Assembly (NCBI GenBank): GCA_022566535.1
Contig: JADFIR010000001.1
Location: 62,001 to 126,000, forward strand
DNA length: 64,000 bases
From: Planctomycetota bacterium
GTDB taxonomy: Bacteria; Planctomycetota; Phycisphaerae; Phycisphaerales; SM1A02
Reading direction: 5' to 3'
Positions 6,801-34,052 of the stretch are shown piece by piece. The position numbers and the translations under genes were made by a program. Positions within the stretch are counted from its first letter, which is position 1. Every line of letters begins with the position of its first letter. Under the pieces are notes generated by a model. That model saw only the letters and a program-made list of their open reading frames with translations, did not search any database and was not told the origin of the DNA.

Positions 6801-7865
6801 CTATTCAAACAGAGAGGCACAGGGTTCGTGGCGGGCCTCCGCGCCGTCGTGGACGCTAAATGAGCTGCCCTTGCGCATCGCGGCGCTGCCGTAGGCCCCG
6901 TCCTTGCGCAGGGCGTACATGATCACGTTGAAGTTCGGCTCCCCGCGATCATTGAGCAGATCATGGCGCTTGGTGTGATCGGCGATCCACTTGAGCACCC
7001 GCAGGCACGCTTCGGTGGGGTCGTCGCCGTCGGCCATATGCTGGACGGCCTGGAACGCGCCGCAGGATTGGATGACCGCCTCGCCGCGCCCGGTGGCCCC
7101 GGCTGACCCGACCTCATTGTCCACGAACATCCCGGCCCCGATGATCGGTGAATCACCGACCCGCCCGGGAAGCTTGTAGCTCAGCCCGCTGGTCGAGGTG
7201 CACGCGCCGAGATCTCCGTTTGCGTCCACGGCCGAGCAGTGAATGGTGCCCTGGGTGAAGGGGATATGTGGCGGTGGGCCACCGCCGCCACTGTGTGCGG
7301 GTTTCGTATCCACCTGTTGCTCTTGGTTGAGCCAATCGTCATGAGGGTTGAGCTGTTGCTTCCAGCGCAGCCAGGCTTCGCGGGCCTGGTCGGTGAGCAG
7401 ATTCTGCGGCTTGAAGCCGATGGCCTTGGCAAAGGCCAGGGCGCCCTCGCCCACCAGCAGGACGTGATCGGTCCGCCGCAGCACTTCCAGGGCGACCTGG
7501 GCCGGGTTGCGGATACTTTGCAGGGCTGCCACCGCCCCGGCCTTATGAGTCCGGCCGTGCATCACCGAGGCGTCAAGCTCCACGACGCCTTGCTCGTTGG
7601 GAAGTCCACCGTAGCCGACGGACATGTCGTTGGGATCGTCTTCGACCAGCGTGATCCCCGCCACGATCGCTTCGAGCGGATCGGCGCCGCCGCGCAGCAG
7701 CTCCATCGTTCGCTTGACCGCCGGCGTCCCGTTGCGGGAGCTGATGGCCAGCGGTCGGCTTGGGCCGGGCTGCGACGCTCTGGATGATGCCGATGACATG
7801 GCCGAGAGAAACGGGACCGAGGCCGCCGAGGCGGCGAGGAACGTTCGTCGGTTCAGGGTGTCCAT
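6801..7865 (-). CDS. Exported N4-(beta-N-acetylglucosaminyl)-L-asparaginase / asparaginase 2 family
   Basis: 354 residues. A twin-arginine signal is visible (NRRTFLAASAASVPFL at residues 5-20), so it is probably exported folded by Tat. The sequence follows the N-terminal nucleophile hydrolase family: GGADPLEAIVAGI, DPNDMSVGYGGLPNEQG, DASVMHG, and the autoprocessing site GTIHCSAVD with Thr207 as the expected nucleophile. GACTSTSGLSYKLPGR and GDSPIIGAG follow. Known for the family: cleavage of the Asn-GlcNAc bond of glycoasparagine, or isoaspartyl/asparaginase activity. Inferred role: periplasmic glycoprotein or peptide breakdown. The start has a -10-like hexamer 6 nt ahead instead of a ribosome-binding site. 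Confidence 0.85.
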   Translation of the reverse strand: MDTLNRRTFLAASAASVPFLSAMSSASSRASQPGPSRPLAISSRNGTPAVKRTMELLRGGADPLEAIVAGITLVEDDPNDMSVGYGGLPNEQGVVELDASVMHGRTHKAGAVAALQSIRNPAQVALEVLRRTDHVLLVGEGALAFAKAIGFKPQNLLTDQAREAWLRWKQQLNPHDDWLNQEQQVDTKPAHSGGGGPPPHIPFTQGTIHCSAVDANGDLGACTSTSGLSYKLPGRVGDSPIIGAGMFVDNEVGSAGATGRGEAVIQSCGAFQAVQHMADGDDPTEACLRVLKWIADHTKRHDLLNDRGEPNFNVIMYALRKDGAYGSAAMRKGSSFSVHDGAEARHEPCASLFE

Positions 7866-7904
7866 GGTAATAGCGTAGTCGCTTTGGCCCCAGAGCTCCG
7901 AGTC

Positions 7905-10850: not shown

Positions 10851-11417
10851 TCAAGGTGTTCGCGGACGGACTTTGACTTGGTTGTCGTAGACGTCCGTGA
10901 CCACGACGGGGGTGTTGGCCTCGATGATGCCCGTCTCGGCCATGCCATCGAGGCGTTGCCCGTTGATGGTGACGAAGCCCACCGGCCGCAGCGCGGTGAC
11001 GGTCACGCCCTCGGCCCCGATGAGCTGACGCAGCTGGGCGAGGCGGTCCTTCCGTTGCTCCGCTGAGGCTCGCTGGGCATCCTCTTGGGACTCAGTCAGC
11101 GGCTCGTCCTCACCGCCGAGCACCATCCGCCTGGCCAGCGGTGAATGAAGCCAGACCTTGAAGACGAACACGAGAACAATTGGGGTGCCGACGGCATACA
11201 CAACCGACGCCGCGATCCCAAAGGTCGTATCAAATCTGAAGAACGCGAAGATGGAGCCAATCGCCGCCACGCCGCACAACAGGCCCAGCAACCCGCCCGA
11301 AGGAACCAGCAGTTCCACCAGCAGCAGCGCCAGGGCGACGGCGGCCAGGATGAAACCCCATAGGAGGTATATGTCGTTGTTCGTTGTTACGGCGGCCTGG
11401 ACCAGCGTCACGGTCAT
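10851..11417 (-). CDS. Short NfeD-family membrane protein
   Basis: 188 residues starting at ATG 11417, which shares one base with the stop of the long NfeD gene (TGATG), so translation is coupled. Three or four closely spaced membrane segments occupy residues ~15-95 (LWGFILAAVALALLLVELLVP, then GGLLGLLCGVAAIG, then IVLVFVFKVWL). A soluble OB-fold NfeD domain follows at ~130-188 (GAEGVTVTALRPVGFV, INGQRLDGMAETG, VVVTDVYDNQVKV). It lacks the ClpP-like protease domain carried by its neighbour. Known for the family: NfeD proteins pair with flotillin/stomatin-type proteins and affect membrane microdomains. Confidence 0.85.
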   Translation of the reverse strand: MTVTLVQAAVTTNNDIYLLWGFILAAVALALLLVELLVPSGGLLGLLCGVAAIGSIFAFFRFDTTFGIAASVVYAVGTPIVLVFVFKVWLHSPLARRMVLGGEDEPLTESQEDAQRASAEQRKDRLAQLRQLIGAEGVTVTALRPVGFVTINGQRLDGMAETGIIEANTPVVVTDVYDNQVKVRPRTP

Positions 11418-13168
11418 CACTTTGATTCCTCGACTTCGATCACGAATCGCCCCACGGACACCACGCGCAGCGGCGTTCCCCGATCGATATAGTCGCCCAC
11501 GGACTTCACGTCCACCAGCCGGCCGTGGAACATCGCCCGCCCGGCCGGGCGCAGATCGGTGTCCGCCGTCCCCAGGTCTCCCGATTCTAGCGGTCGCCCA
11601 ACGTCGCCGATCGCCTCCAGCAGTCCGGGCTCGCCGTTGTGCCCCTCCGATTGACCGACCTGGGTCTTGAGTACGAAGCGACTCAGGATCGGGACGGTTT
11701 CCAGTTGTCTGGAAACAAGCCAGAACGCGATCCCGGCTGCGAACAGCGCCGTCAGCATCGCGGTCAATCCGGTCAACAATTCCGACTGACCGGCCGGCGT
11801 GCCCAGATCGCCTGAGACGAATGTGCCGACGAGACCCACCAGCAGGCAGACGACGCCCGCGACCCCGGCCACGCCGAACCCGGGGATCACCAAGAACTCG
11901 ACGGCGATCAAGAGCAGGCCCGCCGCGATCAACAGGACTTCCCACCATTGGGCCATCCCTGCAAGCCAAGGCGCGCCGATGAGGACCAGCAACGACACAC
12001 CCGCCGCCGCGCCGAACGCGCCGACGCCCGGCGCAGCAAGCTCGATGAGCAGGCAGACGAGGAAGATAACGATCAGGACGCCCATGACGATCGGGTCGGT
12101 GAGGAACTGCACCAGCGATTCAGACCAGGTCCGGTCGTACCGGCGAAGGGTCTTGGCGCCGAAATACGCCTTGAGCTGCTCGTCACCGGCGATGACTGCC
12201 GTGGCCAACCCGTAGTAGATGGCCTCGGCGGGCTTGAGCGTCAGCAGCCGGTCATCGGAGACGACCTGGGCGATCAGCCGCCACTTGCCCCGGTCGGTCT
12301 CGGCCAGTGGCGCCCGCGCGGGTGGAAGCTGCTGCTGGAACTCCATTTCTGCTTTGCGCTGCTGTGGATCAATCGGCACTTCGCCGGCATTGTCGTATTG
12401 CGGGATCAGCGTGTTGAACCAGGGACTCACCGGGATCGTGTCAGATCCGCTGGGTGAAGCAACCGGCGTCAGCTCCTGCGGCGGCTCCCGGCCGAACACC
12501 GTGTGGTATTCCTCGTGATCGACGAATATCTTTTCGCCGGTGTTGACGTGTTCGATGAGCCACAGCTCGACGCCGACGCCCACGAACGCCTGCACCAGGT
12601 TCTCGTCGTAGTGGTTCCGCCTGGCTGAATCGACTACCTCGGTGAGGATCGGCGATTCAATCTTGGCTCGCTCGGTGCTGGCAATTACACCAAACGGGCT
12701 GATAGGGGCTGCGTCGCCGAATGACGCGTCGGGGGCCGTCACGATCTCCCGACACGCCAGGGCGATGATCGTGCCCGCCGAGTAGGCCATGGGGTTGATC
12801 CAGGCGACGGTGTTAGCGGGTGCGTCCGTCTTGATCAGGTGGCAGATATTGAGCGTTGCCGTCAGCGCCCCTCCGGGGGTGTCGATATCCAGGACGATGG
12901 CGTCCGCTCCGTCGCGCAACGCCTCGCTGAGACGGCGCTCAAGTGAACGCAACGTGATCCGGTCGATCCCGCCCCGGATCGTCAGCACCGCGATGGTGTT
13001 GGACTGGCGGTAGGCCGGGACCGCGGTCCGGTTCGGTGGGCCGGGGGCTGTTGGCTGGGCCGCGGTCGCCCACGCCGTGTTCAGCCCCAGCCACAGCGAC
13101 CAGCCCGCAGCTGCACTCACAGCGCAGCGGGCAGGCAGCCGGTTCCATTGGCAAGGACATGATCGCAT
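11417..13168 (-). CDS. Long NfeD: membrane-bound ClpP-class serine protease
   Basis: 583 residues from ATG 13168; the open frame begins earlier at a TTG (13192), which is less likely. A signal-like region (AVSAAAGWSLWLGLNTAWA) precedes a ClpP/SppA-like domain: IAVLTIRGGIDRITLRSLERRL, ADAIVLDIDTPGG, then NPMAYSAGTIIALAC, whose Ser is the expected nucleophile, and DASFGDAAPI. Membrane segments follow from ~380 to 500 and an OB-fold NfeD domain ends the protein. Known for the family: NfeD1b-type proteases cleave stomatin/flotillin-like partners. The downstream order short NfeD then floA supports this. No strong ribosome-binding site is visible. Confidence 0.85.
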   Translation of the reverse strand: MRSCPCQWNRLPARCAVSAAAGWSLWLGLNTAWATAAQPTAPGPPNRTAVPAYRQSNTIAVLTIRGGIDRITLRSLERRLSEALRDGADAIVLDIDTPGGALTATLNICHLIKTDAPANTVAWINPMAYSAGTIIALACREIVTAPDASFGDAAPISPFGVIASTERAKIESPILTEVVDSARRNHYDENLVQAFVGVGVELWLIEHVNTGEKIFVDHEEYHTVFGREPPQELTPVASPSGSDTIPVSPWFNTLIPQYDNAGEVPIDPQQRKAEMEFQQQLPPARAPLAETDRGKWRLIAQVVSDDRLLTLKPAEAIYYGLATAVIAGDEQLKAYFGAKTLRRYDRTWSESLVQFLTDPIVMGVLIVIFLVCLLIELAAPGVGAFGAAAGVSLLVLIGAPWLAGMAQWWEVLLIAAGLLLIAVEFLVIPGFGVAGVAGVVCLLVGLVGTFVSGDLGTPAGQSELLTGLTAMLTALFAAGIAFWLVSRQLETVPILSRFVLKTQVGQSEGHNGEPGLLEAIGDVGRPLESGDLGTADTDLRPAGRAMFHGRLVDVKSVGDYIDRGTPLRVVSVGRFVIEVEESK

Positions 13169-13518
13169 TGGCAGATAAGTATAGATTTCCAATTCGGTAG
13201 ATGGCAGACGGTTCAGGCGCCAAGTCCCACAGCACGTCTTTGGCGGGCACTCGTCGTATCAGCTTCCGAGTGCCGGGGCCGGGTGCGGGATGATCGCGGC
13301 GCTGCCTTCTGCGCCCAGGCCGTGGGTGATAGGGCCGATTTGCCACGATGTCTGAGGCGGCGGCAGCAGCCCGGGCGCGGCCTGGGCACCGACCCGAGGG
13401 AAATTCTTTGCAAAAATGGCGATTCGGGTTCACCATTGCGGGCAAGACGGTGCATCATGGTTGAGGCGTCTTCCCGCTGGCCGAGACAGGTAGAAAGCTC
13501 AAAGAAGGAGGTCATGCC
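13169..13518. other. Intergenic region between divergent genes
   Basis: About 350 bp between the minus-strand NfeD gene and the plus-strand dockerin protein. Nothing coding is supported. An AT-richer patch around 13400-13430 (TTCTTTGCAAAAATGG) could hold promoter elements for the plus-strand gene, but no clear -35/-10 pair was found. Confidence 0.4.
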
Positions 13519-18019: not shown

Positions 18020-18691
18020 CTAGCGGCTTCCCGCCAACTGCGGCATAGCCGCGTGCGCCTTGTCCCAGTCGGCGAGGAACTTCTGGAGCCCGACGTCCGT
18101 CAGCGGATGCTTCATCACTTGCTGGATGACCTTGAACGGGGCGGTGGCGACATCGGCGCCGATGAGCGCCGCTTGTGACAAATGCATCGGATGGCGGATC
18201 GACGCCACGAGTATCTTGGTCGAGAACCCGTAGTTGTCATAGATCGTGCGGATCTGCTGCACGATCTCCATGCCCTCGAAGGCGACGTCATCCATTCGCC
18301 CGATGAACGGGCTGATGAGAAACGCGCCCGCCTTGGCGGCCATCAACGCCTGAAGCGGCTGGAAGCACAGCGTCATGTTGATCTTCGTTCCGCGATCGCT
18401 CAGCGTCTTGCAAGCCCGCAACCCTTCCTCGATGCATGGCAACTTGACGACGATGTTCGCTGCGATCTGAGTGAGCGGCTCGGCTTCGGCCACCATTGGG
18501 TCGTGCTCGGTCGAGACCACCTCGGCGCTCACGGGCCCGCTGACGATCTGGCAAATCTCTTCCAGGCGGGTATGGAAGTCCACGCCCTCCCTGGCCACCA
18601 GGCTGGGGTTGGTGGTCACGCCGTCCAGCACGCCCAGATCCGCAGCCCGCTTTATCTCATCCAGGTTCGCGGTGTCGATGTAGATATCCAT
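18020..18691 (-). CDS. Transaldolase, small TalC/fructose-6-phosphate aldolase-like type
   Basis: 223 residues from ATG 18691, the usual length of the small decameric transaldolase subfamily. Family landmarks are MDIYIDTANLDEIKRA, DGVTTNPSL, VSAEVVSTE, the Schiff-base lysine in IVVKLPC (Lys83), INMTLCFQPLQAL, SPFIGRMDD and VASIRHPMHL. Known reaction: transfer of a dihydroxyacetone unit between sugar phosphates in the non-oxidative pentose phosphate pathway, or aldol cleavage of fructose 6-phosphate; the two cannot be told apart with confidence here. Its start lacks a ribosome-binding site but has TACAAT 6 nt upstream. Confidence 0.88.
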   Translation of the reverse strand: MDIYIDTANLDEIKRAADLGVLDGVTTNPSLVAREGVDFHTRLEEICQIVSGPVSAEVVSTEHDPMVAEAEPLTQIAANIVVKLPCIEEGLRACKTLSDRGTKINMTLCFQPLQALMAAKAGAFLISPFIGRMDDVAFEGMEIVQQIRTIYDNYGFSTKILVASIRHPMHLSQAALIGADVATAPFKVIQQVMKHPLTDVGLQKFLADWDKAHAAMPQLAGSR

Positions 18692-18697
18692 GGCGAT

Positions 18698-18703
18698 ATT
18701 GTA
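18698..18703 (-). promoter_or_regulatory. -10-like TACAAT 6 nt before the transaldolase start
   Basis: On the minus strand TACAAT is followed by ATCGCC and then the ATG at 18691. A transcript from this -10 would begin at or next to the start codon, i.e. be leaderless. No convincing -35 is visible. Confidence 0.45.
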
Positions 18704-18738
18704 TCGCGCTGGGTGGTCTGGGTGGTGAATCTTCCAGG

Positions 18739-20175
18739 CTAGCTTTGCCGCATCAGAATCATGATCGCGTTGGCCAACAGGCTCACGATCATGATCAGCA
18801 GCACGATGATGAATGCCGGGCTCTCCAGTACGCTGCTGCGGCTGGATCGCTTCGGGTCGGCCGGCGGCGGGAATGCGGGCTCGCCGGTCAACGCGGGCGC
18901 GACGTCGGAAAGGTCCAGGCTGCGATGGGCGAAATGCGGGGGCCGACCTTTGGCGATCAGCTTCAGGTCCGCCAGCAGGTCCGCCTCGCTGTGATAGCGG
19001 TCCTTGGGACGCTTGGCCATCATCATCTCGATGACCTGAGCGCAGCCGGCGCTGATGTTGGGGTTGATGTGGTCAGGCGGGGTCAGTTCGGCCTTGAGAT
19101 GCTTGTGCATGACCGCCGACGGATTCTTCCCGTCGAAGGGAACTTTGCCGGTGACCATGTGGTAGAAGGTCGCCCCCAGGCCGTAGATGTCGGCGGCGGG
19201 GCCGATCTTGATCTCACCGCGGATCTGTTCAGGGCTGATGTAATAGGGCGTGCCGTAGGCCCGGCCGGCTTCAGCCTCTGCGGCGGCCCGGTCGCTCATC
19301 GCCCTGGCCAGGCCAAGGTCGGCGAGCTTCACTGCACCCTTACGGCTGATGATAATGTTCTTGGGCTTGACATCGCGGTGGATGAAGCCTTTTTCGTGGG
19401 CATGTTGCAGGGCCTTCGCCACCTGGGTGACGACCTGGATCGCCTCGGCTTCGATAATGCGCTTGCCCTTGACAATGCGGTCGTAGACGGTCTGCCCGTC
19501 CACATATTCCATCACGAAGTAGTACTGATCGCCCGCTCTGCCGACGTCGTAGGCACTGACGATGTTGGGATGGTTCTGCTGGGCCGCCGCCCGGCCTTCC
19601 TTGTAGAACCGATCGATGAAGTTCTTGTTGGCCGAGAGCTTCTTCGGCAGCACCTTGATGGCGACCAGGCGGTCCAGGCTCAACTGCCTGGCCAGGAAGA
19701 CCGTGGCCATGGCCCCGGAGCCGAGCTTCCGTTTGATCTTGTATCCGGGAATCTGCTCGGTCGATTTCTTCGCCTCAAACTCGCGTCGCAGCCGGTCGAG
19801 TTGTCGCGGCGTGAGGAACTGGCGCTCAACCAGCAGATCGGTGAGGGTGCGCGGTTCGTCGAGTTGCGCCGATTCCCGCTGGAAGGCGTGGCACAGCTCC
19901 ACCTCCTCGGCTGTGGCCAATCCGCGCTGCACGACGAGCTTGCCGAGCATCGTCTCGAACCCGCCGGTGGAGGTGCCTTGGCCGGGCGCTGCGGTGGATT
20001 CGCCGGCGGCCGGTTGATCGCGCGCACCGGTGTCGCTCGCGGCGCCGCCAGCTGCGTCCACCGCCTGTGTTGATCCTTCGTTGGAATCCGCCAGGGACAA
20101 CGGCGGTTCGTCCTGGGTGGCCGAAGGATTCAGCGGTCGCTCTGGTTCGTATGCTTCACTCACGATTGGCAACAC
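18739..20175 (-). CDS. Membrane-anchored Hanks-type Ser/Thr protein kinase
   Basis: 478 residues from a GTG at 20175 (a second GTG at 20163 is an alternative). Residues 1-75 are low-complexity; 75-140 form a helical region (MLGKLVVQRGLATAEEVELC, LLVERQFLTPRQLDRLRREF) like the FhaA/DUF-type leader seen in planctomycete kinases. The kinase domain spans ~145-400: glycine loop LGSGAMATVFLA, Lys174 (VAIKVLPKK), catalytic HRDVKPKN (Asp268), ADLGLA (Asp286; DLG for DFG), GTPYYISPEQ. A C-terminal membrane segment (~455-475) places the kinase in the cytoplasm. No PASTA or other sensor follows. Substrate unknown. Confidence 0.9.
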   Translation of the reverse strand: MLPIVSEAYEPERPLNPSATQDEPPLSLADSNEGSTQAVDAAGGAASDTGARDQPAAGESTAAPGQGTSTGGFETMLGKLVVQRGLATAEEVELCHAFQRESAQLDEPRTLTDLLVERQFLTPRQLDRLRREFEAKKSTEQIPGYKIKRKLGSGAMATVFLARQLSLDRLVAIKVLPKKLSANKNFIDRFYKEGRAAAQQNHPNIVSAYDVGRAGDQYYFVMEYVDGQTVYDRIVKGKRIIEAEAIQVVTQVAKALQHAHEKGFIHRDVKPKNIIISRKGAVKLADLGLARAMSDRAAAEAEAGRAYGTPYYISPEQIRGEIKIGPAADIYGLGATFYHMVTGKVPFDGKNPSAVMHKHLKAELTPPDHINPNISAGCAQVIEMMMAKRPKDRYHSEADLLADLKLIAKGRPPHFAHRSLDLSDVAPALTGEPAFPPPADPKRSSRSSVLESPAFIIVLLIMIVSLLANAIMILMRQS

Positions 20176-25514: not shown

Positions 25515-25540
25515 ACTGCCTTGCCGTTAGAATGCGGCCC

Positions 25541-26776
25541 ATGGAGTTTCGCGACTACGAACCCGCCACGGACCGCGAGGCCGTGCAACGCATCTGGCGA
25601 GAGACCGGCTGGCTGCGGGAAGGCAAGGAGGAGGTCATGGACCTCATCCTCGAAGCCGGTCGGGCGATCGTGGCCGAACTCAACGGCGAGGCGGAGTGTT
25701 TGGTCAACACAGTTCCGGGAACGATGCGCTATCTTGACGCTGACCTGCCGATGTCATGTGTGGCCGGCGTCACCACCAGCCGGATTGCCCGCAAGCAACG
25801 ACGCGCCAGCAGATTGACCGCACAAGCGGTGGCTGACGATGTCGCCGCAGGCGCGATTGTCTCGGTCTTGGGCATGTTCGAACAGGGCTATTATGACCGC
25901 CTCGGCTTCGGCGCCGGCGGCTACGAGTATTGGATTCGGTTTGACCCGGCCCGGCTGAAAGTTGATCTCGACCCGCGCGTCCCCCGCCGGCTGACCGTAG
26001 ACGACCGATCTGCGGTGCACGCCAACCGGCTCGACCGGCTTCGCCGCCACGGCGCGTGCAGCGTGGCCCCGTTGCAGTTCACCCATGCGGAGATGCTCAG
26101 CTCCTACAAGCAGAGCTTCGGCCTGGGTTATTTCGACGGGCCGGATGGCCGGCTTACGCACCACATTTGGTTCGCCGTCAAGGACAATGTCGAATTCGGC
26201 CCGTACACCGTGAAATGGATGGCCTGGCAGACACCGCGGCAATTTCGGGAACTACTGGCGATCATCAAGAGCCTCGCCGATCAAGTCGCCATGATCTCGG
26301 TCCGCGAGCCGGCGGGCATTCAATGGCAGGACCTGATCGACCGGCCATTTGAGTCGCAAACCTTGAGCCGAGGCGGCGAGTATGAGCAGCGTATCGAATG
26401 CAACGCGTATTGGCAGATGCGCATCTGCGATCTACCGAAGTGTCTGGACCAGACGCATCTGCCCGGTGACGATGTGCGATTCAACCTCCGGCTCACCGAT
26501 CCGATCGAGAGGTTTCTCCCTGAGAATGCTCCGTGGCGGGGAGTCGCGGGCGAGTACGTCGTTTCGCTTGGACCTTCCTCGGGCGCCCGGCGCGGGGCGG
26601 ATTCCTCCTTGGCGACCCTCGACGCATCGGTGAACGCGTTTACTCGAATGTGGCTCGGCGTTCGCCCGGCTACGGGGCTCGCCATTACCGACGACTGCTC
26701 CGCTGAGCCCCAACTGCTCGAACAACTGGACCGCGTCCTGCGCCTGCCGGACCCGAAACCGGATTGGGATTTCTGA
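25541..26776 (+). CDS. Eis-like GNAT acetyltransferase with SCP2-type C-terminal domain
   Basis: 411 residues from ATG 25541 (MEFRDYEP); an in-frame ATG at 25532 is an alternative. Neither has a ribosome-binding site, but TAGAAT lies 7 nt before 25541. The N-terminal GNAT unit includes MSCVAGVTTSRIARKQRRASRL (acetyl-CoA loop, with V-x-T-x-x-x-x-R-K/Q) and VLGMFEQGYYDRLGFGAGGYEY, typical of Eis proteins. A middle GNAT-like domain and a C-terminal sterol-carrier-like domain (~300-405) follow. Known for Eis: N-acetylation of aminoglycosides or protein lysines. The substrate here is unknown. Confidence 0.75.
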   Translation: MEFRDYEPATDREAVQRIWRETGWLREGKEEVMDLILEAGRAIVAELNGEAECLVNTVPGTMRYLDADLPMSCVAGVTTSRIARKQRRASRLTAQAVADDVAAGAIVSVLGMFEQGYYDRLGFGAGGYEYWIRFDPARLKVDLDPRVPRRLTVDDRSAVHANRLDRLRRHGACSVAPLQFTHAEMLSSYKQSFGLGYFDGPDGRLTHHIWFAVKDNVEFGPYTVKWMAWQTPRQFRELLAIIKSLADQVAMISVREPAGIQWQDLIDRPFESQTLSRGGEYEQRIECNAYWQMRICDLPKCLDQTHLPGDDVRFNLRLTDPIERFLPENAPWRGVAGEYVVSLGPSSGARRGADSSLATLDASVNAFTRMWLGVRPATGLAITDDCSAEPQLLEQLDRVLRLPDPKPDWDF

Positions 26777-28827: not shown

Positions 28828-28900
28828 GGTACCGGGGTCCTGTGGCGGCCTAACCGCGGGCCGGTTGCGAGCCCGGGCCAGCCCGTACTATGGGGCTGGT

Positions 28901-30508
28901 GTGACGCTTCTCGCAGCTTCCATACCGGTGCGTGGGACCGATGAGCCGGATGCGGCGCTTCGCCGGGCGACGCAGGCGGTCGAAGCCGGGGCCCGGCTGA
29001 TCGAATGGCGGATCGACGCCCTGGCTGAGGAACCCGACGCGCTCGCTGCAATAAAGGCCCTGGTCCGCCGATGTCCCGCCCCGTGCATCGTCACCTGCCG
29101 TGTGTGCGGTGAGGGTGGAGACTATGGCGGCACCGAAGACCATCGAGCAGAGATCTTCGAGGCGCTGGTCCGGGCCGATCATCCGCCGCGGTATATCGAC
29201 ATCGAGCTGGCCGCGTATCAGCGCGACACCCGCCTGCGCCGCGCGATCAGCGCGGCTCTCAAAGACGGCGAGCGGGCCCGCGATGCGCATACTTCGTTGA
29301 TCCTTTCCGTTCACGACTTCGATCGCAGGCCGGCGGACCTGTTGCAAAGGATCGAAGCGATGACCAACGAGCCGGCGTGTTCGGTGATCAAGGTCGCCTG
29401 GCAGGCTCGGTCGTTACGCGACAATCTCGAAGCGCTTGATCTGCTGGCCCAACGAGCCAAGCCGATGATCGCCTTGTGTATGGGGCGCTTCGGCTTGATG
29501 AGCCGGGTGTTGGCGCCGAAGTTCGGCGGGCTGCTGACCTTTACGACCGATCGGTCCGCAGAGATGACCGCGCCGGGTCAGCCGACGATCGATGAGTTGC
29601 AGAACGTGTATCGGTTCCAGCGCATTGGCCCCCCGACGAAGGTCTACGGGGTGATCGGGTGGCCGGTTGAGCATTCGCTCGGCCCGTCGATCCACAACGC
29701 CGGGTTCGAAGCGGTCGAACACGCTAGCGCATACCTGCCGATGGCGATTCCGCCCCAGTACGAGCATTTCAAGGCGACCGTTGGCGCGATGCTCGATCAT
29801 CAACACCTGGGTTTCCGCGGCGCGAGCGTGACCAGTCCGCATAAGGAGCACCTGCTGCGATTTGTAGCGGATCGCGGCGGCAGGATCGATGCCTTGGTCG
29901 AGCGCATCGGGGCCGCCAACACGTTGGTTGTAAGCGATGAGGGTTTCATCGAGTGCTTCAACACCGATGCGCCGGCTGCGCGGGAAGCGCTGTGTGCGGG
30001 GATGGGCATTGAGCGGTCGGCCTTGGCGGGCGTGCGGATTGCCGTGCTCGGGGCCGGCGGCGTGGCTCGGGCCGTTGTGGCGGGCCTCGTCGAGTACGGG
30101 GCAACGGTTGTCGTGTTCAACCGGTCACCGGAACGGGCCGAAGCGCTGGTCGCCAGCCATAAAGCCGCGACCGGCGGTCGCGGGAAGGTTGCCGTCGGCA
30201 AGCCGGACGCCATCGCCGGCGATCGCTTTGACGTGTTCATCAACTGCACGCCGATCGGCATGGCCGGCGGTCCGGCCGCCGATGAATCACCGCTTCCCGA
30301 CGACGTCCCCCTGGACGAGAACGTCACTGTCTTCGATACGGTGTACATGCCCCAGCGCACGCCGCTGATTCAACAGGCCCAAGCCCACGGGGCACGGGCG
30401 ATTTCGGGCTTGGACATGTATCTGCGGCAAGCGGCGATGCAGTTTGAGCGTTGGACGGGATGTCAAGCGCCGACCGAAGCGTTCGCAGCGGCACTGAAGA
30501 ATCAATAG
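28901..30508 (+). CDS. aroDE: Bifunctional 3-dehydroquinate dehydratase / shikimate dehydrogenase
   Basis: 535 residues from GTG 28901; homology starts there, although the frame is open from 28799. The N-terminal type I dehydroquinase (~1-225) shows IEWRIDALAE, YIDIELAAYQ, LILSVHDF (catalytic His) and SVIKVAWQA (Schiff-base Lys). The C-terminal shikimate dehydrogenase (~240-530) shows VYGVIGWPVEHSLGPSIHNAGF, ASVTSPHKE (catalytic Lys), NTLV, the dinucleotide loop VLGAGGVARAVVAGL, NCTPIGM and GLDMYLRQAAMQFERWTG. Known role: steps 3 and 4 of the shikimate pathway. Such fusions are known in plants and planctomycete/chlamydial lines. aroC lies 1.5 kb downstream. Confidence 0.92.
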   Translation: MTLLAASIPVRGTDEPDAALRRATQAVEAGARLIEWRIDALAEEPDALAAIKALVRRCPAPCIVTCRVCGEGGDYGGTEDHRAEIFEALVRADHPPRYIDIELAAYQRDTRLRRAISAALKDGERARDAHTSLILSVHDFDRRPADLLQRIEAMTNEPACSVIKVAWQARSLRDNLEALDLLAQRAKPMIALCMGRFGLMSRVLAPKFGGLLTFTTDRSAEMTAPGQPTIDELQNVYRFQRIGPPTKVYGVIGWPVEHSLGPSIHNAGFEAVEHASAYLPMAIPPQYEHFKATVGAMLDHQHLGFRGASVTSPHKEHLLRFVADRGGRIDALVERIGAANTLVVSDEGFIECFNTDAPAAREALCAGMGIERSALAGVRIAVLGAGGVARAVVAGLVEYGATVVVFNRSPERAEALVASHKAATGGRGKVAVGKPDAIAGDRFDVFINCTPIGMAGGPAADESPLPDDVPLDENVTVFDTVYMPQRTPLIQQAQAHGARAISGLDMYLRQAAMQFERWTGCQAPTEAFAAALKNQ

Positions 30509-30525: not shown

Positions 30526-31911
30526 CTACAACACGAACCGGCTGAGATCCTCGTCCTTCATGATCTCTTGGAGGCGCTGGTGCACGAACTCAGCGGTGAT
30601 GGTGATCTCCTTCTCGCCTCGACCAGCCAGCTCCGGCGCGTCGAAGCTGATCTGCTCAAACACGCATTCGATGATGGTCATCAGTCGCCGCGCACCGATA
30701 TTCTCCATCCGGGAGTTGGCCTCGGCGGCGAGCTCGGCCATGGCGTCGATCGAGTCGGGGACAAAGACGATCTTCAGCCCTTCGGTGCCCAGCAGCGCTT
30801 CCTGTTGCTTGGTCAGCGCAGCATCGGGCTCAATGAGGATGCGCTTGAAATGCTCCTTGCCCAGCGGATCAAGCTCGACGCGGATCGGGAACCGCCCTTG
30901 CAGCTCCGGCATCAGATCGCTCACCGCAGCACTATGAAAGGCTCCAGCCGCGATGAAGAGGATCTGGTCCGTGTGCACCACGCCGTAGCGGGTGTTGACG
31001 GCTGAACCTTCGACGATCGGCAGGAGATCGCGCTGAACCCCCTGGCGGCTGACGTCGGCTGATCCGGTCTTCGCACCGCCCGGGGCGGCGATCTTGTCCA
31101 TCTCATCAAGGAAAATGATGCCGGTCTGTTCCGTGCGCTCGATCGCCTGCTCGATGATCTTCTCATTGTCGATGAGTTTGTCGGTCTCCTCTTCCAGCAG
31201 GATGGCCCGCGCGCGGGCGACCGTGACGCGCCGCCGATGTGATCGCTCGGGCAGAATGTTCTCCAACACTGAAGCGAAGCCGGGATCAATCTGGTCCGGT
31301 CCCATCATGCCGATGATGGGAATGGCCTGCTTCTCCCGAACGGTGATCTCGATCTCTCGATCCTCAAACAACCCGTCGCGCAGCTTCTCGCCCATCCGCT
31401 GACGAACATGCTCGTGCTGCTCGGCCTGGGCGGTGTCTTGCACCGGCGGGCCTCCGTCGCCGTCGGCGACGAATCGTTCGCTCGGCGTTGAGGTGGCTTC
31501 ACCTAACAGCAGCGAGACCAGGCGACGCTCCACCGCCGCTTCGGCCTGCTCGCGGACCACATCCGCCTGCTCGGCCCGAACCATGCTCACGCCCAGCTCC
31601 AGCAGATCGCGGACCATCGATTCCACGTCCCGGCCGTGGTAGCCCACCTCGGTGTACTTGCTCGCCTCGACCTTGATGAACGGGGCGTTGACGAGGGCCG
31701 AGAGCCGGCGGGCGATCTCGGTCTTCCCCACGCCGGTCGGGCCGATCATGATGATGTTCTTCGGCGCGACTTCACGGGCCAGATCGGGATCAAGCTGCCG
31801 CCGACGCCAGCGGTTGCGCACGGCGACCGCGACCGCCCGCTTGGCCTGGTCCTGACCGATGATGTGCCGATCGAGCTCGGCGACGATCTGGCGCGGCGTG
31901 AGTTCTTTCAT
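30526..31911 (-). CDS. hslU: ATP-dependent protease ATPase subunit HslU (ClpY)
   Basis: 461 residues, the usual length. LTPRQIVAELDRHIIGQDQAKRAVAVA opens the protein; Walker A is GPTGVGKT (57-64); KVEASKYTEVGYHGRDVES is the substrate-pore region (GYxG: GYHG). The I domain (~110-245) includes LVSLLLGE. Walker B is GIIFLDEMDKIA; sensor and arginine-finger regions include ELQGRFPIRVEL and NIGARRLMTIIECVFE. The C-terminus ends LSRFVL, close to the tail that docks into HslV. No hslV gene is adjacent or elsewhere in the window. Start has TACCAT 9 nt upstream and no ribosome-binding site. Confidence 0.93.
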   Translation of the reverse strand: MKELTPRQIVAELDRHIIGQDQAKRAVAVAVRNRWRRRQLDPDLAREVAPKNIIMIGPTGVGKTEIARRLSALVNAPFIKVEASKYTEVGYHGRDVESMVRDLLELGVSMVRAEQADVVREQAEAAVERRLVSLLLGEATSTPSERFVADGDGGPPVQDTAQAEQHEHVRQRMGEKLRDGLFEDREIEITVREKQAIPIIGMMGPDQIDPGFASVLENILPERSHRRRVTVARARAILLEEETDKLIDNEKIIEQAIERTEQTGIIFLDEMDKIAAPGGAKTGSADVSRQGVQRDLLPIVEGSAVNTRYGVVHTDQILFIAAGAFHSAAVSDLMPELQGRFPIRVELDPLGKEHFKRILIEPDAALTKQQEALLGTEGLKIVFVPDSIDAMAELAAEANSRMENIGARRLMTIIECVFEQISFDAPELAGRGEKEITITAEFVHQRLQEIMKDEDLSRFVL

Positions 31912-31982
31912 GGTCGAGGTATGGTAAGCGACAACGAATCAGATAGCCCGCCCCTTGCCGCGGGTCTGTAGGATGTCGTCGC

Positions 31983-33200
31983 ATGAGCCTTCTCACCTAC
32001 CAAACCGCCGGCGAATCGCACGGCCCGGCCGTGACGTGTCTGATCCACGGCCTTCCCGCGGGGTTGGTGCTGGACATCGACTTTATCAACGCCCAGCTGC
32101 GCCGTCGCCAAGGCGGTTACGGCCGCGGTCGCCGGCAGAGGATCGAATCAGATGCGGTCACGATCCTCGGCGGGGTTCGGCTGGGGCGGACCACCGGGGC
32201 GCCGCTGGTGATCCAAATTCCAAATAAAGACAACCGCCTGGACGATCTTCGGCGCACGCCGCCGGTGTATCGGCCGCGCCCGGGTCATGCGGACCTCGCC
32301 GGGGCGATGAAGTGGCTGACCACCGACTGCCGCAACACGCTGGAGCGGGCCAGCGCCCGTGAGACCGCCGGGCGCACCGCCGCCGGAGCCGTCGCCCGAT
32401 GCCTGCTGCGCGAGTTCGGCATCACATCGTTTGGCTTCGTTCGCGGACTGCTGGATGCGATCACCGATGTTCAGCCGAGCGAGGAGAATCTTGACCAACT
32501 GGTCGCCGATCGCGATTCGTCCGAGGTGTATTGTCCCGGTCCGGAGGTAAGCGAACGGATCATCGAGCACATCCGCCAGGCGAAGATCGACAAGGACACC
32601 GTCGGCGGCCTGGTTGAGGCGCACGTGTTTGGCTGCCCCATCGGCCTGGGTTCCTGCGCGCATTGGGATCAGAAGCTGGACGGTCGGTTAGCCGCGGCAG
32701 TGATGAGCATTCAGGCGTTCAAGGCCGTTGAGATCGGGCTGGGCAAGGAGTGCGCGTTGCGGCGAGGCTCGCAGGTGCACGATCCGATTGAGTATGACGA
32801 TGCGCGAAGCTCCAAGCCAAACCTGGGGTTTGTGCGTCCGACGAATAACGCCGGGGGGATCGAAGGCGGGATGACCAACGGCATGCCCATCGTGGTGCGC
32901 GGCACAATGAAGCCGATCAGCACGCTCCTGCAAGGTATGCCCAGCGTTGATCTCAATACCAAGCAAGCCCGACGAAGCACCTACGAGCGCTCGGATGTGT
33001 GCGCCTTGCCGGCGGCGAGCGTGGTCATGGAGAATGTCGTCGCATTCGAGATCGCACGAGCGTTTGTCGAGAAGTTCGCCGGCGACACGATGCACGAGCT
33101 ACGGTCAAGCTACGACGCCTATCTCGATCTCGCTCGACGATTACCGCTCGAACCGCCAATAGGCGCCGCCGAAATGGAAGCGGACCAAACCGAAGCGTGA
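31983..33200 (+). CDS. aroC: Chorismate synthase
   Basis: 405 residues. Landmarks: YQTAGESHGPAV (family signature 1), LRRRQGGYGRGRRQRIESD, GRTTGAPLVIQIPNKD, YRPRPGHADLAGAMKW, NTLERASARETAGRTAAGAVAR (signature 2) and FVRPTNNAGGIEGGMTNGMPIVV with SDVCALPAASVVMENVVAFEIA (signature 3). Known reaction: EPSP to chorismate with reduced FMN as catalytic cofactor, last common step of aromatic synthesis. Divergent from hslU; each start has a -10-like hexamer immediately upstream (TAGGAT at 31969-31974). Its last 9 codons lie inside the left copy of a 229-bp duplication. Confidence 0.95.
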   Translation: MSLLTYQTAGESHGPAVTCLIHGLPAGLVLDIDFINAQLRRRQGGYGRGRRQRIESDAVTILGGVRLGRTTGAPLVIQIPNKDNRLDDLRRTPPVYRPRPGHADLAGAMKWLTTDCRNTLERASARETAGRTAAGAVARCLLREFGITSFGFVRGLLDAITDVQPSEENLDQLVADRDSSEVYCPGPEVSERIIEHIRQAKIDKDTVGGLVEAHVFGCPIGLGSCAHWDQKLDGRLAAAVMSIQAFKAVEIGLGKECALRRGSQVHDPIEYDDARSSKPNLGFVRPTNNAGGIEGGMTNGMPIVVRGTMKPISTLLQGMPSVDLNTKQARRSTYERSDVCALPAASVVMENVVAFEIARAFVEKFAGDTMHELRSSYDAYLDLARRLPLEPPIGAAEMEADQTEA

Positions 33201-33411: not shown

Positions 33412-33750
33412 TTACTTGCCGATGATCCGTTCCAGTTGCTGAATGAGTGGTGGGAGGTCCAAGTCCACGACGTCCCAGAGCACGTTGAGGTCAACGAGAT
33501 CATAGGCGTGGATCAATCGGTTCCTCATGTGGATAATTTCCTGCCACGGGATTCCGGGGTGCGCGGATCGCATCTCGTTTGAAACACGGCTGGCGGCTTC
33601 GCCCACCACTTCGACCAGCCGGGTCAGGGACAGGTTCAATTGGCGATCGGAGTCAAGGTCGGCCCGCGTGCGGCCTGCGCCCATGTCCACCGCCTCACGG
33701 GAATGCTCCAGCATCTGGCGAAGGCTGACCCTGTCGTCATGCCGCGACAT
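33412..33750 (-). CDS. hepT: HepT-like toxin (DUF86 RNase) of an MNT/HepT module
   Basis: 112 residues, all-helical, overlapping the upstream antitoxin gene by 14 bp. The active-site motif RX4HXY is intact as RNRLIHAY (Arg76, His81, Tyr83). LTRLVEVVGEAASRVSNEMRSAHPGIPWQEIIHMRN is the typical HepT approach to that motif (given here by region, ~43-77). Known for the family: HEPN ribonuclease toxin neutralised when the MNT partner AMPylates the motif Tyr. Context: the pair is an insertion between aroC and clpB, inside a direct duplication. Confidence 0.87.
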   Translation of the reverse strand: MSRHDDRVSLRQMLEHSREAVDMGAGRTRADLDSDRQLNLSLTRLVEVVGEAASRVSNEMRSAHPGIPWQEIIHMRNRLIHAYDLVDLNVLWDVVDLDLPPLIQQLERIIGK

Positions 33751-34039
33751 AGATGTCCTTCGCTTCGGCCAGGACTTCGTCGCGGAAGTATTTGCTGAGC
33801 GATTGTGGGGTGTGAAGGTCGACTTTGTGCCCGAGTATTTCAGACAGCCTGTCCTGGATACGGAAGAACGCGAGGCCTAGCCGCGTGCCCGGCTCGAACT
33901 CCACGAGCAAATCGACATCACTATCCGGCGTGAAGTCACCGTGTAGGGCCGACCCGAACAATGCCAACCGGCGAATGTCGTGCCTCACGCAGAACTCTGC
34001 GATCTGCGGCCGGGGAAGATTGCCAACATCGAAGCTCAT
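33737..34039 (-). CDS. mntA: MNT-type minimal nucleotidyltransferase antitoxin
   Basis: 100 residues from ATG 34039, the size usual for MNT antitoxins; the ATG at 34051 is an alternative but TATGAT at 34047-34052 would overlap it and is well placed as a -10 for 34039. The nucleotidyltransferase core is intact: LALFGSALHGDF (Gly29-Ser30), SDVDLLVEF (Asp41, Asp43), and the third acidic residue in GHKVDLHTP. Known for the family: transfers AMP to the HepT tyrosine, blocking its RNase. Overlaps hepT by 14 bp. Confidence 0.87.
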   Translation of the reverse strand: MSFDVGNLPRPQIAEFCVRHDIRRLALFGSALHGDFTPDSDVDLLVEFEPGTRLGLAFFRIQDRLSEILGHKVDLHTPQSLSKYFRDEVLAEAKDIYVAA

Positions 34040-34046
34040 CGCCGAG

Positions 34047-34052
34047 ATCATA
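34047..34052 (-). promoter_or_regulatory. -10-like TATGAT 7 nt before the mntA start
   Basis: On the minus strand TATGAT is followed by CTCGGCG and the ATG at 34039, with no ribosome-binding site. This fits a leaderless transcript for the toxin-antitoxin pair. Confidence 0.45.

Follow-up and report, generated by a model that had tools for sequence, protein, structure and literature searches.

−10-like hexamers close to start codons point to leaderless messages in a Phycisphaerae planctomycete

The TACAAT at positions 18698–18703 raises the question of what a hexamer resembling a promoter −10 element does only 6 nt away from the start codon of a gene, in this case one for a transaldolase. The sequence-only reading had listed seven such starts in the window, by which we mean the whole 64,000-nt stretch of planctomycete DNA that was analysed, and had interpreted them as the starts of leaderless transcripts. 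The seven, together with an eighth candidate that was absent from that reading, are given here by coordinates and strand of the hexamer:

18698–18703, minus strand: TACAAT, −10-like, 6 nt before the transaldolase ATG (18691); gene 18020–18691, Pfam TAL_FSA
7872–7877, minus strand: TACGCT, −10-like, 6 nt before the asparaginase-family ATG; gene 6801–7865, Pfam Asparaginase_2
34047–34052, minus strand: TATGAT, −10-like, 7 nt before the ATG of the mntA nucleotidyltransferase; gene 33737–34039
25528–25533, plus strand: TAGAAT, −10-like, 7 nt before the ATG of a GNAT acetyltransferase (Eis-like); gene 25541–26776
31969–31974, plus strand: TAGGAT, −10-like, 8 nt before the aroC (chorismate synthase) ATG; gene 31983–33200
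31921–31926, minus strand: TACCAT, −10-like, 9 nt before the hslU ATG; gene 30526–31911, Pfam AAA_2 (the name hslU is that of the sequence-only reading)
28886–28891, plus strand: TACTAT, −10-like, 9 nt before the aroDE GTG; gene 28901–30508, start backed by orthologue alignment
13178–13183, minus strand: TATACT, the eighth candidate, 9 nt before an NfeD-family ATG (13168); gene 11417–13168

A direct check of the window sequence found all seven hexamers and their spacings to be exact. No GGAG-type site precedes any of the seven starts, and the AGGA upstream of aroC falls within its own TAGGAT. The spacing had been described as fixed, which is too strict a term for the observed range of 6–9 nt. 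The proposal that all seven are first genes of their transcription units stands for aroC, hslU and aroDE, which have a divergent upstream neighbour; the four others trail co-directional genes, with gaps of 26 nt for the Eis-like gene, 39 nt for the asparaginase-family gene, 47 nt for transaldolase and 187 nt for mntA. The gene 47 nt upstream of transaldolase encodes a Ser/Thr protein kinase on the same strand (region 18020–20163, minus strand). As judged by Pfam, mntA belongs to an MNT nucleotidyltransferase/HEPN pair at 33412–34039 (minus strand; HepT-like partner at 33412–33750), in which the first gene carries the leaderless-type start. Our start-finder took 28928 over the aroDE GTG at 28901, and it also did not pick the mntA ORF. 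For the NfeD-family gene it chose GTG 13120 over the candidate ATG 13168; the N-terminus read from ATG 13168 appears signal-peptide-like by eye, and the gene may start there and be an additional leaderless candidate.

Beyond the window, we examined a sample of its genome (labelled G000) made up of the window and 35 stretches, 0.70 Mb in all or about 21% of the 3.36-Mb genome (86 contigs). Genes were called by a purpose-written finder relying on coding potential and start-codon type, with neither Shine-Dalgarno nor −10 motif used, which yielded 507 genes; the position of TANNNT is that of its first T relative to the start codon. Plotted in this way, TANNNT indeed forms a sharp peak at −15 to −12, as the sequence-only reading had predicted for a genome-wide plot. 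Among 322 first-type starts there are 7, 6, 8 and 10 matches at −15, −14, −13 and −12, respectively, and 1 each at −11 and −10. Divergent starts have the hexamer at −15 to −12 in 20/140 cases against a control-window mean of 4.8, co-directional starts with a gap of at least 100 nt in 11/182 (control mean 3.3), intermediate-gap starts in 6/74 (1.65) and close starts with a gap of at most 30 nt in 3/88 (1.0), giving 40/484 starts overall. Even the 64-kb window alone, with starts taken by coding potential only, has 5/50, whereas its controls average 1.18 (binomial P = 0.006). Of the 40 hexamers in the sample, the most frequent is TACACT (6/40). By chance, about 8 of the 31 first-gene matches would be expected, and the chance ones are indistinguishable singly. 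With chance subtracted, a leaderless mode would be used in G000 by about 7% of genes with room upstream and by about 11% of divergent genes.

Chance is rejected as the source of the peak, since the matches lie far above both the control windows and in-frame internal ATG codons, which have TANNNT in 30 of 5832 cases in four genomes pooled. An artefact of in-frame TAA or TAG stop codons is rejected as well, because the out-of-frame positions −14 and −13 are equally rich, the in-frame positions −9 and −6 have zero matches, and 21 of the 40 hexamers begin with TAC.

Four of the seven listed genes, namely aroC, transaldolase, hslU and aroDE, were compared with orthologues, and the hexamer is conserved in all four. 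Matches were found in 59, 40, 61 and 39 genomes, respectively, and the best-matching 30 loci were cut for each gene. For aroC, TANNNT is present at −14 to −12 in 29 of these 30 loci, and the exception has CGGAGG. A wider aroC set comprised 131 loci (the best 30, 80 named loci, 20 order or class genomes and G096), from which 37 named loci were dropped by hand after the listing had been viewed, as lying outside the class or being partial; the hexamer was present in 2 of them. Most of the best-matching named records carry a Phycisphaerales or Phycisphaerae label, so the window most likely belongs to this class, and the records retained include some labelled Planctomycetaceae, Planctomycetia, Singulisphaera or uncultured bacterium. 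In the 90 distinct upstream regions among the remaining 94 loci, the hexamer is found at −15 to −12 in 68, at neighbouring positions in 8 and is missing from 14. Not counting sites inside the hexamer, a Shine-Dalgarno sequence occurs in 9 of these 14 regions and in 0 of the 68. Transaldolase shows the cleanest alternation: the hexamer is present in 18 of 27 distinct upstream regions and a Shine-Dalgarno sequence in all other 9, while 1 of the 30 loci has no readable start. In hslU, 24 of 29 distinct regions have the hexamer, 2 more have it at neighbouring positions and 1 of the remaining 3 has a Shine-Dalgarno sequence; the corresponding numbers for aroDE are 20 of 30 upstream regions, 3 more and 1 of the remaining 7. 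The spacer letters differ between orthologues while the hexamer stays, its commonest form being TACCAT (25/130). Over 161 orthologous loci, not deduplicated, Shine-Dalgarno sequences accompany 2/123 loci with the motif, 0/9 near misses and 18/29 loci without it. We also observed that eight genomes of the same order (G041, G044, G045, G048, G049, G053, G056 and G057) have only a distant aroC, with 36–41% identity to that of the window, so that the order has two alternating kinds of chorismate synthase.

The explanation that we consider very probable, judging from these sequence patterns, is that the hexamers are −10 promoters whose position makes transcription begin on the start codon, giving leaderless messages. 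RNA polymerase usually starts about 6–9 nt downstream of a −10 box. The hexamers would be sigma-70-type −10 elements (T−12, A−11, T−7 and often A−8), presumably bound by sigma and located 6–9 nt and in fewer cases 5 or 10 nt ahead of the start codon; with a −10 box this close we infer a leaderless transcript. The 5′ end of the message would then lie on or within a few nucleotides of the start codon, and on such a message, free of a Shine-Dalgarno sequence, ribosomes would presumably recognise the 5′-terminal AUG or GUG directly. The remaining genes are presumably leadered, with or without a Shine-Dalgarno sequence. Across relatives, aroC, hslU, aroDE and transaldolase would have kept the mode, some orthologues having a Shine-Dalgarno sequence instead, most clearly those of transaldolase. 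Some observations count against this reading or its strictest form. Loss of the motif is not always paired with gain of a Shine-Dalgarno sequence, the gain being seen in just the 1/7, 1/3 and 9/14 regions given above for aroDE, hslU and aroC. Furthermore, in 26 of the 123 motif loci, and in 10 of 20 motif-bearing transaldolase loci in relatives, a co-directional gene ends at most 60 nt upstream, and read-through from it is likely to yield leadered transcripts as well. A simple comparison of the losses with operon context showed no clear split among the orthologous loci.

A variant of the same explanation would have transcription start 1–8 nt upstream of the start codon, at least at spacings of 8–10 nt, so that the messages carry a very short leader. 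Spacers of 8–9 nt are indeed common in hslU, with 8 matches at −15 and 5 at −14, and the matches in G096, a genome of the same class, lie at −17 to −15 (2, 3 and 4 of 97). On the other hand, −12, corresponding to a 6-nt spacer, is the commonest position in aroC (35 matches) and in transaldolase (14), and by the usual geometry +1 then coincides with the start codon. The nucleotide just preceding the start codon gave no mark of a transcription start in the orthologous regions, being pyrimidine-rich with and without the motif. We regard a short leader as rather unlikely.

Alternatively, the hexamer could act at the RNA level, as an AU-rich site for ribosomal protein S1 or an unstructured patch that favours translation from ordinary leaders, with no promoter involved. 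This would fit the observation that the hexamer replaces the Shine-Dalgarno sequence at almost the same distance, its presence in some loci where a co-directional gene ends shortly upstream, and a proposal that S1 binding may underlie an A/T bias at −20 to −10, made in the portion of Nakagawa et al. (2017; PMC5397173) available to us. Base specificity points the other way. When all 64 patterns of the form XYNNNZ were ranked at −15 to −12, TANNNT came first with 37/396 starts against 9.8 expected, and the next-ranked patterns (AGNNNG, AANNNG, GANNNG and GANNNA) are purine-rich and Shine-Dalgarno-like. ATNNNT, AANNNT and TTNNNT have no peak at these positions in the 396 starts, which makes the signal specific for T1, A2 and T6; AANNNA is mildly enriched, which speaks somewhat for a translation signal, yet at 23/396 against 12.4 it stays inside the control maximum of 25.

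Gene context separates the two readings further. In the G000 sample, only 3/40 TANNNT starts have a Shine-Dalgarno sequence compared with 148/444 other starts. By distance to a co-directional upstream gene, TANNNT is present in 7/108 starts at gaps above 200 nt, then in 4/73, 2/35, 4/40 (31–60 nt) and 3/28 (11–30 nt), but in 0/16 at gaps of 0–10 nt and 0/44 at overlaps. Thus 40/424 starts with room upstream have the motif as against 0/60 overlapping or abutting ones, even though the latter need translation signals too; their share of Shine-Dalgarno sequences is in fact the highest, 50% at 0–10-nt gaps and 59% at overlaps versus 26% for divergent starts and 21–37% in the gapped classes. The split suggests that the motif needs upstream room and does not require a divergent neighbour, and a dependence on divergent position is rejected by its occurrence at co-directional gaps of 11–60 nt. 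The rule is less strict in three relatives, where 4/63 overlapping or abutting genes have the hexamer (4/123 with G000 included), which either contradicts it in its strict form, in favour of a translation signal, or reflects errors of the gene finder; pooled over G000 and the three relatives, TANNNT precedes 35/278 divergent genes versus 4/123 overlapping or abutting ones.

Lastly, genes that are never translated bear on the matter. Twelve tRNA or tmRNA genes were found, and nine in G000 were inspected. TANNNT lies 13–25 nt upstream of 6 of these 9, by a count made without a shuffled control; all six are tRNA genes, and two tRNA genes and the tmRNA gene are without it. A hexamer before untranslated tRNA genes favours a promoter over a translation signal, and with this, the base specificity and the 0/60 we hold a role at the RNA level to be improbable. 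As to other promoter features, hexamer position 5 is an A in 69% of the 129 orthologous regions that were aligned. T1, A2, T6 and A at position 5 are the bases read by sigma-70; bases 1, 2 and 6 are also given in PMC12340547. A point against the promoter reading is that no −35 consensus was visible in the 129 regions, so that most of the signal would reside in three fixed bases; TTGACA-like sequences (at most 2 mismatches) at a spacing of 16–17 nt occur in 7 of the 40 G000 genes and in 9 of the 129 orthologous regions. As for chance hexamers combined with a favourable choice of starts in the sequence-only reading, the unbiased finder did miss two of the seven listed starts and some hexamers among first genes are expected by chance, but the height of the peak over its controls and the conservation in all four genes compared make this hardly credible.

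In summary, the observation is real and the leaderless interpretation well supported, by the −15 to −12 peak, the avoidance of Shine-Dalgarno sequences, the absence from overlapping and abutting G000 genes, the conservation among orthologues of four genes and the hexamers before tRNA genes.

The arrangement of hslU and aroC deserves separate mention. In the window their start codons (31911 and 31983) are back to back with 71 nt between them, and a divergent hslU-aroC pair is present in 11 of the 30 best-matching aroC loci, three of which represent one genus; across all of them, 38 to 713 nt separate the start codons. In these 11 pairs, the aroC hexamer is at −15 to −12 in all 11, and the hslU hexamer is at −15 to −12 in 8 and at −17 to −10 in 10; in the one remaining pair (G022), the hslU hexamer would have its usual distance if the start were an in-frame ATG lying 9 nt farther upstream. 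Two relatives have just 38 and 41 nt between the two start codons, with one −10-like hexamer per gene. Promoters producing a leader would at these distances fall largely inside the neighbouring gene.

How far the pattern extends was assessed in samples of 200 kb from each of several relatives. A peak of TANNNT was found in a genome of the same family (6/76 versus a control of 0.6), in one of the same order (9/98 versus 1.9, with 6 matches each at −12 and −11) and in G096 from the same class (6/97 versus 1.6, mostly at −17 to −15). Two further genomes of the class, G102 and G062, showed no significant peak in their 200 kb, where the gene finder performed unevenly, and the same was true of three genomes from outside the class but within the phylum, G128, G150 and G129 (coding fractions in these three samples of 0.57, 0.88 and 0.90). 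For aroC outside the class, the hexamer is present at 6 of 20 starts, these being the best 20 of 54 genomes. The preferred distance between hexamer and start codon seems to depend on the lineage, at −12/−11 in G046, −17 to −15 in G096 and −15 to −12 in G000, on small counts (L217–L236). We tentatively put forward, as a possibility that we would not yet bet on, that Phycisphaerae have inherited a class-wide set of leaderless genes on −10-only promoters, and that the hslU and aroC boxes, where the start codons are 38–41 nt apart, are never occupied together, so that expression of the two genes would be obligatorily coupled.

This kind of system is known from elsewhere; what appears new is the clade in which it occurs and its conservation gene by gene. 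The closest likeness is to Deinococcus-Thermus, for which the part of the account available to us describes a TANNNT "−10-motif" adjoining ORFs that was shown to act as a −10 region, with bases 1, 2 and 6 fixed, mostly 6–7 bp before the ORF and conserved between species (PMC12340547). According to the same portion, a properly placed −10 motif suffices in Deinococcus without a −35 element, and a GGAG-type sequence is the other motif upstream of ORFs. TACACT is the commonest form both there and in the G000 sample, whereas TACCAT prevails among the orthologues here. The Deinococcus-Thermus motif concerns nearly one-third of genes and was tested experimentally (PMC12340547), while here it is about 7–11% of the relevant genes, in another phylum and from sequence alone. 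Mycobacterium tuberculosis is similar in being GC-rich and in having leaderless and Shine-Dalgarno genes side by side; its transcription starts were mapped, and the sections available to us give 505 leaderless, 551 Shine-Dalgarno and 676 other-UTR genes with a primary start (PMC3898074), as compared with genomic data in our case. Toxin-antitoxin modules are overrepresented among its leaderless genes, according to those sections (PMC3898074), and one MNT/HEPN module is among the starts listed here.

Surveys across bacteria have come near to the present observation. Zheng et al. (2011; PMC3160421) found "TA-like" signals lying about 12 bp upstream of the start in 207 of the 953 bacterial genomes surveyed, with nearly the same definition as our TANNNT; Planctomycetes are missing from the leaderless groups and the main text in the parts of that paper at hand. 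In the sections of Nakagawa et al. (2017; PMC5397173) accessible to us, one Planctomycetes genome among 260 is positive on a component read as leaderless mRNA and/or S1, and the discussion counts Planctomycetes among the phyla tending to show it. The leaderless idea is thus not wholly new for the phylum; that study left leaderless and S1 signals unseparated and named no genes or orthologues in these sections, unlike the gene-by-gene comparison made here. A 2024 survey of anti-Shine-Dalgarno sequences lists Phycisphaerae and, in the portion covered, reports no leaderless genes there. Our literature search, which included the available parts of PMC5397173 and PMC10783764 and covered few subscription papers, found no specific report of leaderless genes in Planctomycetes, Planctomycetota or Phycisphaerae, and no paper with planctomycete transcription starts as its subject by title.

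If this reading is correct, the range of leaderless expression, with Actinobacteria and Deinococcus-Thermus as its best-known cases, would extend to a deep class of planctomycetes, whose relatives considered here are mostly metagenome-assembled genomes. The position of the hexamer would provide a rule for correcting gene starts in Phycisphaerae, and the 38–41-nt hslU-aroC intergenic regions a compact test case. The alternation between leaderless and Shine-Dalgarno starts, recorded here gene by gene for transaldolase and aroC, would make the evolution of translation initiation directly testable in this class.
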